Shown here: piece after piece, positions 185-11,435 of the stretch | How the letters are laid out: each line of letters begins with the position of its first letter | How positions within the stretch are numbered: position 1 is the stretch's first letter | DNA from: a virus | Length of the DNA: 21,626 bases | Virus record (IMG/VR): IMGVR_UViG_3300005253_001162 | Coordinates: 1-21,626 of that record | Direction: 5' to 3' (one strand) | The notes under the pieces: model-generated | Told to the model about the DNA's origin: nothing | Database searches by the model: none | What the model saw: the letters and a program-made list of their open reading frames with translations, nothing else | Made by a program: the position numbers and the translations under genes

Positions 185-373
185 ATGAGTGATTATTTGG
201 CCCTAATGGGCTGTGAGAGAAAAAATCGCCGCTTTGAACCCGGCGACACAGTTCCCGGGGGCACGTTCCCGGCCAAGGTTGTGAAGCATTGGCTGGAGAA
301 GGGCGTGCTCGCTGAGATTGTTGGCGACGAGGTAGAACTAGAGGAGGACGTAGATGACGCAGGGCAAGACTAA
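185..373 (+). CDS. Small phage protein with KOW-like beta segment
   Basis: This 62-aa protein has ATG at 185, preceded by AAAGGAGAAAAG about 8-18 nt upstream. Residues ~17-40 (FEPGDTVPGG, then PAKVVKHWLEKGVL) look like a short beta-barrel entry followed by a helix, a layout common in small ORFs next to phage tail-tube genes. The acidic C-terminus overlaps the start of the next gene (ATG at 354) by 20 nt, so translation is probably coupled. The role is not known; a head-tail or tail accessory function is inferred from neighbours. Confidence 0.7.
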   Translation: MSDYLALMGCERKNRRFEPGDTVPGGTFPAKVVKHWLEKGVLAEIVGDEVELEEDVDDAGQD

Positions 374-1106
374 CGTCAAGCACTGGAGGTTGTACATTGA
401 TGGTATCGACGTCAGTGGTGTGATGCGAGCCGTTGGAGGGGTTGGTATTACCTTCCAAGAGGAGGATGTCACGGGGATCTCCGACGGCGTGATCAACTTT
501 TCAATCGGCCACGGCCAAGCGTCAATCACCGGCCTGCAGTCAGTGTTCGACAACACGGCAGCCGGCGCGCACGCCGAGCTAAGCGTGATCGAGCAGTACA
601 TCACGAGCCTGCACATGGGCATCAAAGCTGCGCCTACTTACGGCGACCCAGCGTTCGCGTGCCCCCTTGGGCAGTCCGGGTACTCGTTTCAGGGTGACGG
701 ACCAGTTACTGTGTCGTGGGAGCTGAACGGCCCCCACCAAGACAACACACTTCCATCCAAGGTCTGGGGCAAGGTACTGTACCCACCGACCTCTATCGCT
801 GCCACGACTGTAACGACTGCTAACCAGATTGACTTTGGCGCTGCACAAAGCAACGGCGCGTACTTGTACTTACAAATCACAGCGCTGGACGGCGGTGGCA
901 CCTGGACGATCAAAGTTGAAGATAGTCTTGACGGTGGCGGCGGTGGCAGCTGGGCAGACTATGGTACGTTCTCGGCCGACGGGCAAACAGTCCTCGGCGA
1001 ACTAAAAGTAGTGACTGCCAGCATGGATCGCTACGTTCGAATGACAGCAACCGACGGTGGCGCAGGCACTGGCTTCACGCCATCAATCGTGGTTATACCG
1101 CAGTGA
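354..1106 (+). CDS. Tail tube-like protein, paralogue A, with C-terminal extension
   Basis: This 250-aa protein has ATG at 354 with GGAGG 8-12 nt upstream. Residues 4-110 align by eye with paralogues B and C: KTN-x-KH near the start, a V-x-GVGI segment, E-x-DVT-x-x-SDGV-x-NF, and a GH-x-x-x-x-ITG block. This is expected of a major tail (tube) protein building the inner tube, though I assign it from motif pattern and neighbouring chaperone and tape-measure genes, not from a profile. From ~143 onward it carries an extra Gly/Thr-rich beta domain (ALDGGGTWTIKVEDS), absent from B and C, that may decorate the tube surface. The stop overlaps the GTG start of the homing endonuclease (GTGA). Confidence 0.75.
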   Translation: MTQGKTNVKHWRLYIDGIDVSGVMRAVGGVGITFQEEDVTGISDGVINFSIGHGQASITGLQSVFDNTAAGAHAELSVIEQYITSLHMGIKAAPTYGDPAFACPLGQSGYSFQGDGPVTVSWELNGPHQDNTLPSKVWGKVLYPPTSIAATTVTTANQIDFGAAQSNGAYLYLQITALDGGGTWTIKVEDSLDGGGGGSWADYGTFSADGQTVLGELKVVTASMDRYVRMTATDGGAGTGFTPSIVVIPQ

Positions 1107-1720
1107 TCCTCACCACGCTGTCTCGCGGGCGATCTAAGGTTTCTGGTATTTATGAGATCCGGAGCACAACTAGTGGTAAGCGCTACGTCGGTAGTTCAGT
1201 TGACGTGTATGGCCGGCTGTGGACCCACCGTAGAGAGCTGCGGCGAGATGGTCACTGCAACGCGCACTTGCAGTCGGCGTGGAACAAGTACGGTGAGGAT
1301 GCATTTGAGTATACGCTACTACTCGAGTGTGATCATGACAATTTACTACAATATGAGCAATTTTGTTTAGATGGGTTGAAGCCCGAGTACAACAAGGCGA
1401 TCAGTGCTGAGCGACCGGGGCTTGGTAATAGGTGGCATCACACTGAGAAAATAAAGAAGCAAATTTCGGCCTCGAATAAAGGTAAGCCGAAGTCTAAAGC
1501 ACATTGCAGAGCGATCAAAAGAGCAATGGCAGCTATGGACCCGGAAGTTAAGCGCAGAATTGCACGTATGGGTGGTTTAGCTTCTGCTGGATCATGCTCA
1601 GTTGGTTCAGGTGGTTCATCTGAGCAGCAAGCACAAAGAGGCAAATTTGGTGCTCATCAACGATGGCATGTAGCACGTAACAAAACTAATCCAAAGTGCA
1701 TTCATTGCACAATATCATAA
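1103..1720 (+). CDS. Free-standing GIY-YIG homing endonuclease
   Basis: This 205-aa protein starts at GTG 1103 in a GTGA overlap with the tail gene. It shows the GIY-YIG nuclease module: GIY at residues 15-17, RYVG at 27-30, an Arg in the RLWTHR segment (38-43), a catalytic-type Glu at 85 (YEQF) and YN at 96-97. Residues ~112-128 (HTEKIKKQISASNKGK) resemble a NUMOD3 DNA-binding repeat, and the C-terminus has a Cys-x2-Cys (199/202) zinc-finger-like end. The enzyme should nick or cut intron- or gene-less alleles and so mobilise itself. From ~1310 the gene is visibly more AT-rich than the tail genes on both sides, which suggests transfer. It ends 12 nt before the GTG of an intron-containing tail gene and lies outside that intron. 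Confidence 0.9.
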   Translation: MILTTLSRGRSKVSGIYEIRSTTSGKRYVGSSVDVYGRLWTHRRELRRDGHCNAHLQSAWNKYGEDAFEYTLLLECDHDNLLQYEQFCLDGLKPEYNKAISAERPGLGNRWHHTEKIKKQISASNKGKPKSKAHCRAIKRAMAAMDPEVKRRIARMGGLASAGSCSVGSGGSSEQQAQRGKFGAHQRWHVARNKTNPKCIHCTIS

Positions 1721-1732
1721 AAGGAGAAGCAA

Positions 1733-2393
1733 GTGGCTAACACGGGTCAATCTGGCCCCCTCCTGCGGTAACGCGGGTAGGAAAATCCCCTCTGATTGAG
1801 CTGAACCCTGAGATGGGAACAGTGCGGAACCCGAAAGGGACCGTAAGAGACTGAGCGAGGGGACCCCCAACGGGGAGATGCGACAGTCCGGCCTCATGGG
1901 AAACGAACCATGAGAGGCTAGCGGAAACGACTAGCCCCACCAGTACTGGTGAGTAACAAAAGCGAAGACTAATGCAAAACACATTCGGGTGATCGTGGAC
2001 AACTCCACGGCCGCGACGAAGGACATCTCGGCATTCGTGTCGAACGTCTCTGGAGTAGGGCTATCCTACGCGGAGCAGGATGTCACGGCCTACAGCGATG
2101 GGGTGATCAACTTCACGCTGGGGCATCCCTCGAGTGAGATCGAGATCACCGGGCCGTTCAGCAACACCGCGGCCACAGGTTCACACACAGTCCTAAACGG
2201 TATCGCGGGCCTGCAGAGCGCGACCATCACGCTCACAGTTCAGATCGGCATCAAGGCCGCCCCAACCACTGGGAACCCAGAGTTTGAGGGTGAGTACTAC
2301 TGCTCGAGCTACGTTGTGAACGGCGACGGGACCTACACGGCCCGATTTGTACCCGCCAGCGCAACAGCCCCTGCATGGGGGACGGTGACATAA
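1733..2393 (+). CDS. Tail tube-like protein, paralogue B, split by a group I intron (exons 1733-1747 and 1965-2393)
   Basis: GTG at 1733 follows AAAGGAG (1720-1726). Exon 1 encodes V-A-N-T-G and ends at U1747. Without splicing the frame runs into TAA after 12 codons. Joining 1747 to 1965 restores GKTNAKHIRV and one continuous 147-aa product, nearly the same length as the 149-aa paralogue C (2394-2843), which begins V-A-N-L-G-K-T-N-A-K-H. An ORF caller would probably report only an internal start at 1989, so the annotated N-terminus would be wrong. The conserved SDGVINFTLGHPSSE and ITGPFSNTA blocks are present. The role is a tail tube subunit, or a minor tube variant alongside A and C. Its stop TAA directly abuts the GTG of C. 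Confidence 0.85.
1748..1964 (+). ncRNA. Self-splicing group I intron, 217 nt, ORF-less
   Basis: The exon ends in U1747 and the intron in G1964, as group I splicing requires. Elements seen: P1 pairs exon GGGU (1744-1747) with internal guide GCCC (1755-1758), with U1747-G1755 as the wobble. P2 is CCTGCG-gtaa-CGCGGG (1762-1777). P3 is CCCCTC (1787-1792) with GAGGGG (1857-1862). P6 is CCC-GAAA-GGG near 1831-1840. P7 is GACTG (1849-1853) with CAGTC (1884-1888), inside the usual R (AAGAGACTGA) and S (GCGACAGTCC) contexts. P8 is CCCC-aac-GGGG (1865-1875). Three hairpins follow as P9-type domains (CTCATGG/CCATGAG, GGCTAG/CTAGCC, CACCAG/CTGGTG). The P3-P4/6-P7-P3'-P8-P7' order is that of a group I core, and the paralogue alignment independently fixes both splice sites. 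Confidence 0.93.
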
Positions 2394-2843
2394 GTGGCGA
2401 ACCTAGGGAAAACCAACGCAAAGCACATTCGGGTGTTCATGGATGACGCGACCCCGACTGCTAGAGACATATCAGCAAGTGTGTCCAATGTCTCAGGTGT
2501 TGGACTGACGTACGCGGAGCAGGACGTGACCGCGTACTCTGACGGAGTGGTCAACTTCACGTTGGGCCACCCGTCGTCTGAACTTGAGATCACTGGACCG
2601 TTCAGCAACACCGCGGACATCGGGGGGCACGAGGTGTTCTCCGCGATCGTAGGAGTGCAGCCGGTAGCCGGCACCGCATACACACTGACAATACAAATTG
2701 GCGTGCGAGCTGCGCCGACGGCCACCGACCCTGAGTTCGAGGGAGAGTACTACTGCACCTCGTACATGGTCAACGGTGACGGGACCTACACGGCTCGACT
2801 AGTACCAGCAAGTTCAACCGCCCCAGCTTGGGGCACAGTATAA
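2394..2843 (+). CDS. Tail tube-like protein, paralogue C
   Basis: This 149-aa protein starts at GTG 2394, directly after the TAA of paralogue B. It shares most of its sequence with B, for example KTNAKHIRV, SNVSGVG, YAEQDVTAYSDGV, NFTLGHPSSE, GPFSNTA, EGEYYC and VNGDGTYTAR. B and C therefore look like a recent tandem duplication of a tail-tube gene, and A is a more distant relative. C carries no intron at the position interrupted in B. The stop TAA at 2841-2843 leads straight into the AGGAGGAAGG ribosome binding site of the next gene. Alternatively, one of the copies could be a decoration or minor tail protein. Confidence 0.78.
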   Translation: MANLGKTNAKHIRVFMDDATPTARDISASVSNVSGVGLTYAEQDVTAYSDGVVNFTLGHPSSELEITGPFSNTADIGGHEVFSAIVGVQPVAGTAYTLTIQIGVRAAPTATDPEFEGEYYCTSYMVNGDGTYTARLVPASSTAPAWGTV

Positions 2844-3235: not shown

Positions 3236-3456
3236 ACGACGCCCCCATACCCTGGGCACTACAAATCTTCTACGACTGTCAAACCTTCGGACAGTTCCCG
3301 CGGTCGGGTGGTTGGCACAAACAGGACGACGATGAGATGTACTTGATAAAGTTGGCTAACCGATCTGCCACTGCGTACGCTAACGCGGTGGCCGGGCATG
3401 AGATATCAGAAGATGATGCTGGGTTTTTTGTGTGGGTTGAAAGTGATAATGAGTAG
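3205..3456 (+). CDS. Tail assembly chaperone, downstream frame (T part of G-T fusion)
   Basis: This is the -1 frame relative to 2855-3235, open from before the slippery site to TAG at 3454-3456. Read alone it could start at TTG 3205, but no ribosome binding site precedes it, so production as the tail of a frameshift fusion is more likely. The 83 residues (WALQIFYDCQTFGQFPRSGGW, an acidic DDDEMYLIKL, and SATAYANAVAG) are not recognised by themselves. The stop overlaps the GTG of the tape-measure gene (TAGTG), so the three genes are coupled. Confidence 0.68.
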   Translation: MARAARDYIVDDAPIPWALQIFYDCQTFGQFPRSGGWHKQDDDEMYLIKLANRSATAYANAVAGHEISEDDAGFFVWVESDNE

Positions 3457-3965
3457 TGGCTAACGACACGAAACTTAGATTAATCCTTGAAGCGATTTGG
3501 AAGGGATCGGGCGTCAAACAGGCTTCCTCAGACCTTGATAAGCTCACGAAGTCCACGGGCACCGCCGGCGGTAGCCTGAAGAAGGCTGGCTTGATCGCCG
3601 GTGTGATGGGTGGCGTGATGGCCACAGTGTCTAGCAAGATCATGCAAGGTGTGGGTGCCATGAAGGACATGGCGGTCGAGTCTGTTATGTTGGCCGCTCG
3701 CTACGAGACCATGGGCACTGTGGTTGACCGTCTTGGGGCGAACATAGGACACTCCACGTCGCAGATGCGGATGTTCGAGAAGTCCCTTCAAGGCTTCCTT
3801 GTTTCCTGCAAGGTCCTTGAGTGGGTCCTCCTGCCCACCACCATCTCCACCTTCTCCAGGTTCGCCATCCCCCTCATCCCCAGGCTTAGCCATCCCCTCA
3901 GAGGCAGCTTCTCCATCCCCCTTGACTGGAGGCTTCCCATCAGAGGCCGGCTTGCTGGCGTCTGA
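3456..3965 (+). CDS. Tape-measure protein, N-terminal part only; truncated at the 3777-3797 junction
   Basis: GTG 3456 overlaps the previous stop. Residues 1-110 look like a tape-measure N-terminus: a basic LRLILEAIWKGSG start, the D-x-L-x-KLT-x-S segment, a Gly/Ala-rich hydrophobic stretch (AGLIAGVMGGVMA), then helix AARYETMGTVVDRLGANIG and MRMFEKSLQ. Complete tape measures run to many hundreds of residues because their length sets tail length. Here the frame stays open to 3965, but after about residue 112 it turns into a Pro/Ser/Leu-rich stretch that is the antisense of a gene on the other strand. Only 3456 to about 3795 is genuine coding sequence. The gene is broken by a sequence junction, not by a nearby stop codon. 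Confidence 0.8.
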   Translation: MANDTKLRLILEAIWKGSGVKQASSDLDKLTKSTGTAGGSLKKAGLIAGVMGGVMATVSSKIMQGVGAMKDMAVESVMLAARYETMGTVVDRLGANIGHSTSQMRMFEKSLQGFLVSCKVLEWVLLPTTISTFSRFAIPLIPRLSHPLRGSFSIPLDWRLPIRGRLAGV

Positions 3966-4073
3966 AACGGAATCTTTACCTTCAATTATAACAGGCACCT
4001 CTTCACCCGCAATAGCTGCGGCTAAAGCTGCCACTTCAGGGTCGGCCTGTTCTGCGCCGGGCTTATCTGGCAT
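3528..4073 (-). CDS. Acidic low-complexity protein, 3' end lost at junction (scaffold candidate)
   Basis: ATG at 4073 has GGGAG 8-12 nt upstream on the - strand. The first ~95 residues are convincing: an Ala/Glu-rich helix (DPEVAALAAAIAGEEVPV), then a Lys/Asp/Gly/Pro-rich flexible stretch (~30-82), then DPLKDLAGNKEALKGLL. Beyond about position 3790 the frame continues to 3528 but is only the antisense of the tape-measure gene (His/Arg-rich, without pattern), so the true C-terminus is missing. A disordered acidic protein last in a TerS-TerL-portal series suggests a scaffolding or capsid-assembly protein. This is inference; no family motif was recognised. Confidence 0.6.
   Translation of the reverse strand: MPDKPGAEQADPEVAALAAAIAGEEVPVIIEGKDSVSDASKPASDGKPPVKGDGEAASEGMAKPGDEGDGEPGEGGDGGGQEDPLKDLAGNKEALKGLLEHPHLRRGVSYVRPKTVNHSAHGLVASGQHNRLDRHVLHGTHTLHDLARHCGHHATHHTGDQASLLQATAGGARGLRELIKV
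3777..3797. other. Inverted junction between two phage segments
   Basis: Here the + strand tape-measure gene and the - strand acidic gene both lose coherent coding sense, and each is intact up to about this point. For ~20 nt both readings still look natural (FEKSLQ on +, ALKGLL on -), which suggests a short shared sequence at the join. To the left I count 8 CTAG tetranucleotides in 3.8 kb. To the right they are far denser, for example 10 within 10681-11280. A chimera of two genomes or an inversion with loss of the head genes both fit. Confidence 0.75.
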
Positions 4074-4398: not shown

Positions 4399-7300
4399 TA
4401 CTCTGTCAATCCTAGCCTAGCTGCAAGCGCGGGTGACAGGCGCCTACCTTCCGTAACTGCACCAGGTGTTCCCACACCCGTACCTATTATGGCAAGTAGT
4501 TCTCTACGGTACAGTCCTGGGAATAGCCTACGCAGCGAATCTTCATTATCAATGAGGTACCGGTCAGCCTCAGGATTACGGTAGTTAGTATCAGCCCCAG
4601 GTCGGACAGTCCAAGCAGCCTGCCAAACACTTATAGGTATATCAGGCCTCTCCTCTATCAGGGCACGATACACCGAATCACTACCCACGTTCAGATAGCC
4701 CTGGCTAGCAAACTCATCCCTCTTAGCCCCTACTAGTTGGTGGATGTCCTCAACCTTGTTCTCCATCTCCTTGTCTATACCGAACCAGCGGTCTATCTCA
4801 CGATAACCTGACAGTGAATCCAGAGCAGCCAGTATCTCAGGCTCAACTTTGATTAAGTTAGGGCTCACAGCCCTGGTACGAGCCTCTAGCGCATCTGCTA
4901 GTTCAGGATAGACTCTTCGTATCTCAGCGAAGGCTGCTTCCTTGTCTGCTCGGTAAGCATCACGGTCCACGTCCCGAGTGATAGCATCACGGTACTTCTC
5001 GTCATCAGGCTGTATCTCTCCCCAGGCTTGGAGAGCCTTACCCTCAGGAGTCTCGGCCTGCCTATCCTCTCCAAAGATACTGAATGAGATTGCATCTGAC
5101 ATACTGGCCTGGTGGTCTAGCCAGTCATTGATGAGGGCTATGCCTACGTCCTCACCTGCCAGGAATCTCTCGGCATCCTTCTCTAGGCCGCTCTTAATCT
5201 CTTCCTGGCCACGGAACTCCTCAATCTTCTCTCTACGCAGGGCAGACAAGGAACCCCACTTTAGACTAGAGGCATTAGAGGCTGCCACCATAGGAGAGAA
5301 CTCTACGGATAGCTCAGGGTGAGAGTCGGCAACTATCCAGTCCACCTCATCATTGAACTCCCTACCAGTTGTACCCTGCCACTCCTCTCTAAGCAACCTA
5401 TTGACACTGGTTGGATAGGGGTTGAAGCCTACACCAGCTAAGACCAAGGACATCACATCAGTTTCCTGGAAGGCTATCTGCTCCGCTAGCGGAGGTGTAG
5501 GAGGGATACTCAAGGCTCGGTCCCTGAATGAGAGTCCACTCTCTCCTCCAGGGAGACCACCTGCACGGAACCGCCCAGTCTCAGGGTCAAAGCCCACACC
5601 GAGTATAGGCCCTAGTAGGGATTGGACCGCAGGAGAGGACTTACCTATTACAACCTGTGCCCAGGCAAGGGCTATATCCTCTGGACGCCAGCCCTCACCC
5701 TCGATACCTTCTGTGATGATAGTTATGCTCTTGTCAATGGCACGGGCTAGAGTCCTCTGTGGCATGAGCGGAATAGTAGTGCCCTTAATCCTGATAGTGG
5801 CCCAGTCAGGCTTACCAGGTTGCCACTCTTGAGGACCATCACCAAAGACCCCATTGATGAGGTACTGCATACCATAGGTATAGGCAGCAAGGTTCATTAG
5901 GACTAAAGCAGTACGGAGTTTTTGCATCCTACCACCTACGGTAAGACCCTCAGCTATCTGAGCATAGACAGCTATGTTAGCCCGAGTCATAGGTGCTGAC
6001 GTTAGAGCAAAGGTTTCGACGGCTCTACGCCCTGGAGCCTGTGCTCCTCTACCTGCTCCTGTAGCAGAGTTAGCCCATTCAGCAGACAACCTTCTAACCG
6101 CAGGGTCATTGATGTCCTTGCCAATCATTTTCAAGGCTATAAGGTTACCTTCGTGCATACGGATTCTGAGGGATGTCAGAGCATGGCCAAACTGCGCCTT
6201 CGCCATGAAGTCAATAACCGCGCTAAGAGGCGCATCAATGTACTTGCCTACAACAGGAATCCACTTAAGAACAGTGCCCGCCCTGAGTTGCACAGATGAA
6301 GCAGCTATACCTATATGCAGCGTATCCTCGGCATACTGAACTAACCGCCCAACCACCGCAGGGTCCTGCATGGCAACGTGGATGTAAGGTAGGCCAAGAC
6401 CTTGGAGGCTACGGTTGAGGGTGCCTACTCCTATCTGGAACCCCCCATGAGCCATTGACAGAGGGAACTGGACTCCACCTATGGCTATGTCAACCAAGCC
6501 AAAGGCCGTGTTCTTCATCGTGGCAGCAACGTCACCTACCATCCTGGAGCCTGTACCTACAGGTTGGTAGAGCCTGTCTATCGCAGCAGTTACATCCTGA
6601 GGTGCGCTCCAGCCCTGATAGAGAGGATTACCAAACTTCCTACTACCAGTGAGAGCAGGAACCTTTGCAGTTCTAGTACCATAGCGACGGAGGACCTCCT
6701 GGCGCATAAACGCATCACCTATAGCCTCGTCAAGGAGACGCGAGGAGTGCTGCATCAGTTCCTCAACTGTTAGGTCAAGAGGCTTACCACCCTTGGAGAG
6801 TCCTTCGAGGTAGTCGTCAAACCACCGCTGCTTGGCCACACTTATCTTACCCTTACCTCTTAGGATAGGCTGCTCTAGTGCTCCTCTAGGTATATCCCAT
6901 AGCTGCTCCAGGTAAGCACCATCAAGGGCCTCAATGGGATAGCCTAGCGCACGGGCCTGTTCGAGCCTTGCTCTCATACCTAACTGGGCGTCAATTAGGA
7001 GGCCATCCAGTTTAGCGGACTTACCAGCGAACCAGTCAGGATGCTGGACGACGTGGTAGGCCTTGTACTCACCTTGGGCTAGCTCGGCCCATTTGTTAGG
7101 GCCTGTAAAGGTAAGGTTATCTAGCTCCTTGCTAAGGAGCCTCTGCACACCTCTAAAGATGTCATCCATCTCGTCCGCAGTCTGAAGGTGTAGCGCCTCC
7201 ACAAGGGCAAGCCTTTGGTCAGCTAGTACACCTACTCCTCTGAACACTCGGCCCTTGACTAAGGCTATGCCCTTGGCAATGTGCTGACGCCACGCCCCTG

Positions 7301-9895: not shown

Positions 9896-10696
9896 TTAGA
9901 ACCTAAACTGTGTTCGTTGTTGTGGAAGCACAGGTACTAGCCCCTCCTCCAACTCAGTAAAGAAGTCCTCTGGATTGATGCCTTGGAACTCACCACCATC
10001 GGTTTCCACTCCTCCTCTCAGGAAGCTAGATAGTATGCCTATATCTGTAGGATTAAACGCACCTAACTCGGATCGACTTATAGACTGTGTGGTTGGTAGG
10101 TCTACCCCAAATTGGCCTGCACCCAGAATACCCTCATCACCCAGGCCCTCTAGGTTAAGAGCTAGACTAAAGAGGTCCTGAATCTCGACATCAGACCGAG
10201 GTGCATTGGTAGGAGTAAAGCCCTGTTCCTCCAAACTGCGCTTGAACAACTCAAAAGCCACGAAGTCAGCGGGGTTGGCACCCAGTTGGGCCTCAGTAAG
10301 CCTACGAGCATCCGCATCTCTTTGCTCCTGGAGAGCTATACGGCTCCTCTCTAGTTGTGCCAGTTGGTCCGCAATGAGCTTCTCTAAAGCTAACCTATCA
10401 GCAAATTGCTCTGCCTGGAGGCCAGGTTGTACAGGAACCGCTAGAGAAGCAGGCGGACTGGGAGGTGGTCTAGGTGCAGGTCTGGGCGCCGGTCTAGTAG
10501 CAGGTGCCGGAGCAGCAGCCTGCCCAGGTCGCCACCCACCTATCAGGGCCTTCTGGAAAGCTACATTGGCCGCAGCCGACCCAGGAGGGGCTGTAATTCC
10601 TAGTGTCCTCAGATATCCTCTAATTTCAGCGGATGTGCCTCCCGGCCAGTTTCTACCAAATATCCTAGCATAGGTCTGGAACGGAAGTTCAGCCAT
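9896..10696 (-). CDS. Structural-operon protein with Pro/Ala linker and coiled coil, 266 aa
   Basis: ATG at 10696 follows the previous TAA by one base (TAAGATG). Residues 1-55 (FQTYARIFGRNWPGG, then YLRTLGI) look like a compact domain. Residues 58-92 are an Ala/Pro/Arg-rich linker. Residues ~95-140 (QAEQFADRLALEKLIADQLAQLERSRIALQEQRDA, in two parts) are a long amphipathic coiled coil. The C-terminal half is mixed and acidic. I do not recognise the family. The arrangement of a folded end, flexible linker and coiled coil suits a minor capsid or portal-associated protein, which is inference. Confidence 0.72.
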   Translation of the reverse strand: MAELPFQTYARIFGRNWPGGTSAEIRGYLRTLGITAPPGSAAANVAFQKALIGGWRPGQAAAPAPATRPAPRPAPRPPPSPPASLAVPVQPGLQAEQFADRLALEKLIADQLAQLERSRIALQEQRDADARRLTEAQLGANPADFVAFELFKRSLEEQGFTPTNAPRSDVEIQDLFSLALNLEGLGDEGILGAGQFGVDLPTTQSISRSELGAFNPTDIGILSSFLRGGVETDGGEFQGINPEDFFTELEEGLVPVLPQQRTQFRF

Positions 10697-10697
10697 C

Positions 10698-11435
10698 TTA
10701 GCCTCCTAGGAATCCTCTTGCTATTGCTATAGCCTCATCAAGGGCAGCACCGGAAGGTACTCCAATATCTGTAAGGTTGGGTGATTCTGCCACTATTTGA
10801 TTAGCCATGCCAAATGGGTCAAAGTCAATAGGACTAGCTTCTAGGGTGGGCCTTCCTAGTGCCTCACCAATGTCTCCAGGCCCTCGTCCAGGAAAGAACT
10901 TAGAACCAGGTGCAATAGTGAAGGGTTGTATACCTACAAACTGCTCACCAGCCTCGGCAAAGGCATCTAGCCTCTTGTTGAACTCGTCTAGAGCCTGCTC
11001 AGTGCTAAGGCGCTTGGTATCTATCTCTGTCTCTAGCTCGGCTACAGTGCCCTGGATGAAAGTAGCGAGGTTCTGAGCCTGGACTTGTGACCGCTGTATG
11101 GCTAGTTCAGCAGCAGTAGGGCCACTTGTACCAGGACCACCTCCAAGGCCTAACACCTCCTCCTGGAGCCACTTAGGAGCTAACTCAAATCCCTGGATAT
11201 CACCAGCAAAAGGCCCCTCACCCAGGACAGGCTGATAGACAAAGCCATCCCCACCCAGCACTAGGTTAGATGCCTCTAGCTCTCCCTTGGTCAACTCATG
11301 ACCATCAACGATGCTAAAGAAGCCCGTAAGACCTCCAGGTTGGGTAGCCAGAGGAGGGGCGCCTGTCCCCACTATTTGAGGGCCAACCTGCAAAGACTTG
11401 AGTATGTCAGCTCCTAGGTCACCTTGCTGTACCAT
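10698..11435 (-). CDS. Structural-operon protein, 245 aa, unknown
   Basis: ATG at 11435 lies in a TAATG overlap with the preceding stop. The sequence begins with Gly/Pro-rich segments (to ~115), continues with a helical stretch (residues ~125-165, AELETEIDTKRLSTEQALDE) that could form a coiled coil, and ends in DEAIAIARGFLGG, echoing the first residues of the 120-aa protein at 9522-9884. No enzymatic motif is visible. The place between portal and the giant protein suggests a virion component. The shared FLGG end could be a common docking or processing signal. Confidence 0.7.
   Translation of the reverse strand: MVQQGDLGADILKSLQVGPQIVGTGAPPLATQPGGLTGFFSIVDGHELTKGELEASNLVLGGDGFVYQPVLGEGPFAGDIQGFELAPKWLQEEVLGLGGGPGTSGPTAAELAIQRSQVQAQNLATFIQGTVAELETEIDTKRLSTEQALDEFNKRLDAFAEAGEQFVGIQPFTIAPGSKFFPGRGPGDIGEALGRPTLEASPIDFDPFGMANQIVAESPNLTDIGVPSGAALDEAIAIARGFLGG

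Follow-up and report, generated by a model that had tools for sequence, protein, structure and literature searches.

The window analysed here, a 21,626-nt stretch of viral DNA (IMG/VR record IMGVR_UViG_3300005253_001162), carries two kinds of tail gene, designated A and B, with B present as the tandem copies B1 and B2, and a homing-endonuclease gene of the GIY-YIG type is found between A and B1 (Table 1). The endonuclease gene starts within gene A, with a 4-nt overlap at the stop of the latter, and its 3′ end lies 27 bp short of the point, between codons 5 and 6 of B1, where a small group I intron appears to have been inserted. Its product possesses the GIY-YIG domain (Pfam PF01541, E 4.7e-7, 30.5 bits against a cut-off of 22.6) and is assigned to PHROG 314, homing endonuclease (E 8e-24). 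The order A-B is kept in the relatives L003, L005 and L136-L147.

Products of the B genes resemble tail proteins in sequence and fold, and the genes occupy a tail-operon position. The part of exon 2 of B1 that starts at 1989 matches PHROG 10528, "major tail protein" (E 3.3e-7), and PHROG assigns B2 to major tail protein as well. The predicted structure of B2 is of low to modest confidence (mean pLDDT 59) and shows weak similarity in fold to tail tube and TP901-1 major tail proteins. A tblastn search with B2 in cultured phages returned no match. An earlier note, made from the letters of this DNA, had called B1 a tail-tube gene, and the identification of B as a probable tail-tube or major tail protein is supported by these results, weakly so in the case of the structure.

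Table 1. Features of the split tail-tube locus, in window coordinates; intron, exons and helices are predictions
Feature	Position	Strand	Remarks
Tail-tube/major-tail gene A	354-1106	+	250 aa; PHROG 9522 major tail protein, E 3.8e-12
Free-standing GIY-YIG homing-endonuclease gene	1103-1720	+	205 aa
Ribosome-binding site for exon 1	1721-1726	+	AAGGAG, read in sequence
Exon 1 of tail-tube gene B1	1733-1747	+	five codons, GTG GCT AAC ACG GGT (M/V A N T G)
ORF-less group I intron	1748-1964	+	217 nt; 5′ splice site after U1747, 3′ end G1964
P1	1744-1758	+	exon GGGU 1744-1747 paired to guide GCCC 1755-1758, the stem continuing to 1749/1753; minimum-energy fold
P2 hairpin	1759-1781	+	from the fold
P3	1786-1863	+	1786-1792 with 1857-1863; encloses P4-P5-P6-P6a
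P7	1849-1888	+	GACUG 1849-1853 with CAGUC 1884-1888; guanosine-binding helix, pseudoknotted with P3
P8 hairpin	1864-1875	+	inside P7
Exon 2 of tail-tube gene B1	1965-2393	+	142 codons and stop
Intronless tandem paralogue B2	2394-2843	+	149 aa

The five-codon first exon proposed in that note has held up, in that it is preceded by a ribosome-binding site and encodes an N-terminus that is homologous in intronless relatives and in the spliced gene of the viral contig L004. The 217 nt that follow it are not tail-coding, and translation of the unspliced sequence from 1733 meets a stop after 12 codons. From A1965, the first base of exon 2, the frame of B1 is open up to the stop at 2393 and matches that of B2 starting at the latter's sixth codon, and the spliced product of 147 aa, compared with 149 aa for B2, reproduces the lengths previously given. 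The insertion site reads GGT|AAG in B1 and GGG|AAA in B2, the latter encoding G|KT, and intronless homologues in other viral contigs read ...(T)G|RT... across the same joint, so that the suggested alignment with intronless relatives returned the exon joint that had been predicted. The G-(K/R)-T motif coded around this joint near the N-terminus is conserved in all homologues. Removal of the intron restores the conserved coding sequence, in keeping with group I membership.

The intron contains no ORF of at least 60 aa on its + strand, and its region is more stably folded than any of 200 shuffled sequences (z -4.95). Its conserved core is made up of a P3-P8 domain, a P4-P6 domain and the pseudoknot between P7 and P3, and its ends are those of a group I intron, with U1747 of the 5′ splice site paired to G1755 in P1 and a terminal guanosine, G1964, closing the intron. 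Exon 1 also ends in GGGU in L004 and in a second viral contig, L110, both of which are discussed below.

Independent evidence for the fold was obtained from a covariance model, R1, built only from other viral introns. A loose P7-P3-P8 pattern scan over 2.9 million viral contigs yielded 50 stretches; 20 compact members were taken from these, and an alignment was made of 19 of them, the window being left out. RNAalifold returned the group I topology from these 19 (P3, P4, P5, P6, P6a and P8), 21 of the 24 pairs showing double changes, and the resulting model matches the window once only, at 1783-1893, with 104.5 bits (E 2e-20). All seven pairs of P3 are changed on both sides in relatives. A larger alignment of 51 members was then considered, which includes many extra introns from outside the pattern selection and in which P7, absent from the model, was added as a pseudoknot. 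Across these members P3, P4, P5, P6, P6a, P7 and P8 all covary; standard pairs occupy 94.9% of cells, as opposed to 71% after shuffling and 35-53% with partners slid, double changes occur in 27 of 29 pairs (P7 included), and cells with double changes number 347 against 96 after shuffling, although the alignment was fitted to R1 and these pairing counts lean somewhat its way. P7 is paired in 98.4% of its cells and has double changes in three of its five pairs, including G-C to A-U and U-A among others, and all four pairs of P8 covary.

The fold, the family, the boundaries and the conserved protein reading frame of the intron are thus established by computation. The claim of a group I intron is borne out by a model built without the window and by the covariation of every core helix, and the P3-P7-P8 pairings reported earlier are indeed present and covary in relatives. 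From the sequence, we place the probability that 1748-1964 is a group I intron with exactly these splice sites at about 0.9.

One check suggested in the earlier note failed. A cmscan search of the window with the Rfam group I model, RF00028 (Intron_gpI), gave no group I match at the gathering threshold, nor any up to E 10. RF00028 and the window intron have a common ribozyme topology (P3-P8 domain, P4-P6 domain and P7 pseudoknot), but the Rfam model gives no match to the latter. At gathering, RF00028 found none of the R1 introns in the 19 loci that carry them, its only two matches there being outside the R1 matches, and it gave no match on the intron of Roseobacter phage CRP-118; at E 10, it gave no group I match on the small loci L101 and L148. 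The silence of Rfam was rejected as evidence against the intron, since RF00028 also misses the L110 and CRP-118 introns, whose removal restores a reading frame exactly. The miss is a limit of the model and does not reflect a defining feature of group I introns, and the escape of this family from Rfam seems to be unrecorded in the resources consulted.

A search of 84,980 species genomes of bacteria and archaea for the exact intron-core pattern returned nothing, which suggests, at the level of sequence, that the family may be restricted to phages; a blastn search with the window intron against cultured phages gave no match. A single virus can contain several R1-family introns spaced no more than a few hundred bases apart. 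Clusters were observed in L087 (1282 and 1655), L109 (88 and 329), L130 (973, 2091 and 2358) and L104 (3586, 4708, 5247 and 10663), as well as in L115 and L153, and such clustered cores suggest genes with multiple group I introns. L104 also carries a second group I intron that Rfam does recognise (10363-10570, - strand), about 90 bases downstream of its R1 core at 10663-10773 and in the same portal gene region. In L084, an R1-family core (4745-4863) lies just 3′ of a terminase-like ORF, and a GIY-YIG gene (5034-6020) is found downstream of that core, possibly inside the same intron.

The most direct comparison for the window is L004 (IMGVR_UViG_3300005403_000018), where an intron, in phase 0, splits the same tail gene at the identical position (MAAQTG|RTNAKH). 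The L004 intron scores 52.5 bits with RF00028 and only 19.4 bits with R1, whereas the window intron is matched strongly by R1 and by RF00028 not at all, and the gap between A and B is occupied in L004 by an HNH endonuclease gene on the opposite strand, in place of the GIY-YIG gene of the window. Descent of both from one inherited intron was considered, but the scores favour two intron types, a very old divergence at the site being the less likely alternative.

Two other family members allow the joint to be judged at the level of the protein. In L110, removal of an R1-family intron restores the 700-aa frame of an SU10-type portal gene exactly, with a U|...G| junction. In the cultured phage CRP-118 (OR420741.1; R1 92.6 bits, E 3e-18), removal of the intron likewise restores a 633-aa ribonucleotide reductase frame exactly, with the same kind of junction (DFGTNPCSEIILRPYQF); the exon joint falls within the stretch DFGTNPCSEIIL, and it was placed by visual inspection at the NPCSEI motif, after which the frame was checked, reading-frame enumeration being too permissive (218 solutions). 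The CRP-118 intron is thus similar to that of the window in being ORF-less, in its junctions and in its exact frame restoration, and differs in the gene that it splits. The reductase has been deposited as two CDS, gp44 and gp45, with no intron annotated (locus L155, positions 34084-36157 of the record), and we read these as the exons of one gene split by an R1-family intron. Taken with the intronless genes and the L004 intron at the same base, the frame restoration in these two members supports the splice sites that had been proposed for B1, whose coordinates prove correct to the nucleotide.

The intron is almost certainly spliced, to judge from its sequence. Its RNA would fold into a P1-P9 self-splicing ribozyme. 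Attack by an external guanosine after U1747 would be followed by the joining of exon 1 to A1965, after G1964, to give the 147-aa tail-tube protein. The upstream GIY-YIG gene would most likely be the intron's mobility partner, with its enzyme cutting, in a co-infecting phage, the N-terminal tail-tube sequence that lacks the intron, and the ensuing repair copying endonuclease gene, exon 1 and intron together, a process known as collaborative or trans homing (mechanism reviewed in PMC3984707 and PMC2988022). A free-standing endonuclease gene beside an ORF-less intron, as seen in the window, is the layout associated with this process. In PMC10448857, collaborative homing is named for the ICP1 terminase, where a GIY-YIG-type (T5orf172) gene lies beside the N-terminal exon. 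Other cases of collaborative or trans homing include F-CphI of S-PM2 with psbA, those of T7-like phages, and T4 mobE with the nrdB intron. The window is like these cases in that its endonuclease gene adjoins the exon and is not contained in the group I intron; it is unlike them in its split tail-tube gene, its five-codon first exon and its tandem intronless paralogue, and in that cleavage of the site is here something that we infer.

It is conceivable that the intron is real but that the GIY-YIG gene is independent of it, homing alone between A and B with no functional tie, and we consider this a serious possibility, albeit one with somewhat less than an even chance. Phages commonly carry free-standing GIY-YIG genes (302 annotated phage records match), so adjacency alone could be coincidence. 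Moreover, of the 80 relatives retrieved for the window's GIY-YIG protein, just one has an R1 intron on its locus, because of which the enzyme family cannot be regarded as tied to the R1 intron, and a constant link between the two was rejected. PMC10448857 also proposes that such layouts could instead have arisen through turnover of endonucleases next to introns. Against independence, an arrangement in which an endonuclease gene is followed by exon 1 and then, close to the 5′ end of the split gene, by an ORF-less intron recurs in L104, L110 and L124, where a free-standing GIY-YIG gene located between terminase and portal genes (in L110, after one further gene) precedes exon 1 of a portal gene split by an ORF-less R1 intron. 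Endonuclease and intron also co-occur both in the window and, with an HNH gene, in L004, whereas the intronless viral contigs examined have neither, with A running directly into B. By analogy, collaborative homing would be the likeliest function of the pair, and we lean slightly towards the view that the GIY-YIG neighbour cuts the intron site.

A quite improbable alternative is that the intron splices poorly, such that B1 is silenced, or yields a shorter protein from GTG 1989, and B2 does the work. The intact tandem copy and the open frame from GTG 1989 would permit this, but inspection of the sequence ahead of that GTG, the automatic start, reveals no ribosome site, as expected from the earlier claim that this start is wrong. 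Spliced B1 and B2 share 75% amino-acid identity, with dN 0.18 and dS 2.6 (the latter saturated), and their differences by codon position (35/16/82) are heaped on third positions. The low dN/dS implies strong purifying selection on the split copy as a protein, and this argues, as far as sequence divergence can, that B1 is still made as protein. The conserved motif at the joint and the intact intron core likewise speak against poor splicing. The tandem duplication itself (1961-2839 in the window) shows saturated synonymous divergence, and the relatives inspected appear to carry a single gene B, so the duplication may be lineage-specific.

That there is no intron at all, and that the stretch is an intergenic structured RNA or a misassembly between two tail genes, might be suggested by the lack of an Rfam match and by an odd-looking join elsewhere on the contig, at about 3795, but this highly improbable reading is in practice already refuted by the independent model match, the covariation, the exact frame restoration and the presence in L004 of another intron at this site. 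As to the join, two frames are cut short near 3795, one on the + strand that begins at 3456 in tape-measure position and one on the - strand whose end is near 4073, and between 4398 and 15781 the majority of long genes lie on the opposite strand; a chimeric or inverted contig join may be present there.

Group I introns in phage genes, and endonucleases outside them, are already known. What is added here is independent computational support for an intron of this kind, the Rfam blind spot, the occupation of this site by another intron in L004, and the endonuclease gene that lies outside the intron. No tail-tube case of such an intron was found in the open-access literature, to which the search was limited, and this is weak evidence of absence. 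We give even odds to the broader proposition that the R1 introns are an abundant and possibly phage-restricted small group I subfamily to which Rfam is blind, accompanied in several lineages by outside, upstream endonucleases, and that codon 5/6 of the tail gene is a hot spot taken independently by two unrelated introns with two unrelated endonucleases.

Phage gene calling and Rfam annotation would miss introns of the R1 type, leaving structural and ribonucleotide reductase genes truncated or split in the databases, and model R1 provides a way to find them. Two introns and two endonuclease types at one tail-gene site also furnish pairs in which the collaborative-homing route to mobile introns could be tested, and the recurrent layouts of endonuclease, exon 1 and ORF-less intron offer further test pairs for this process.
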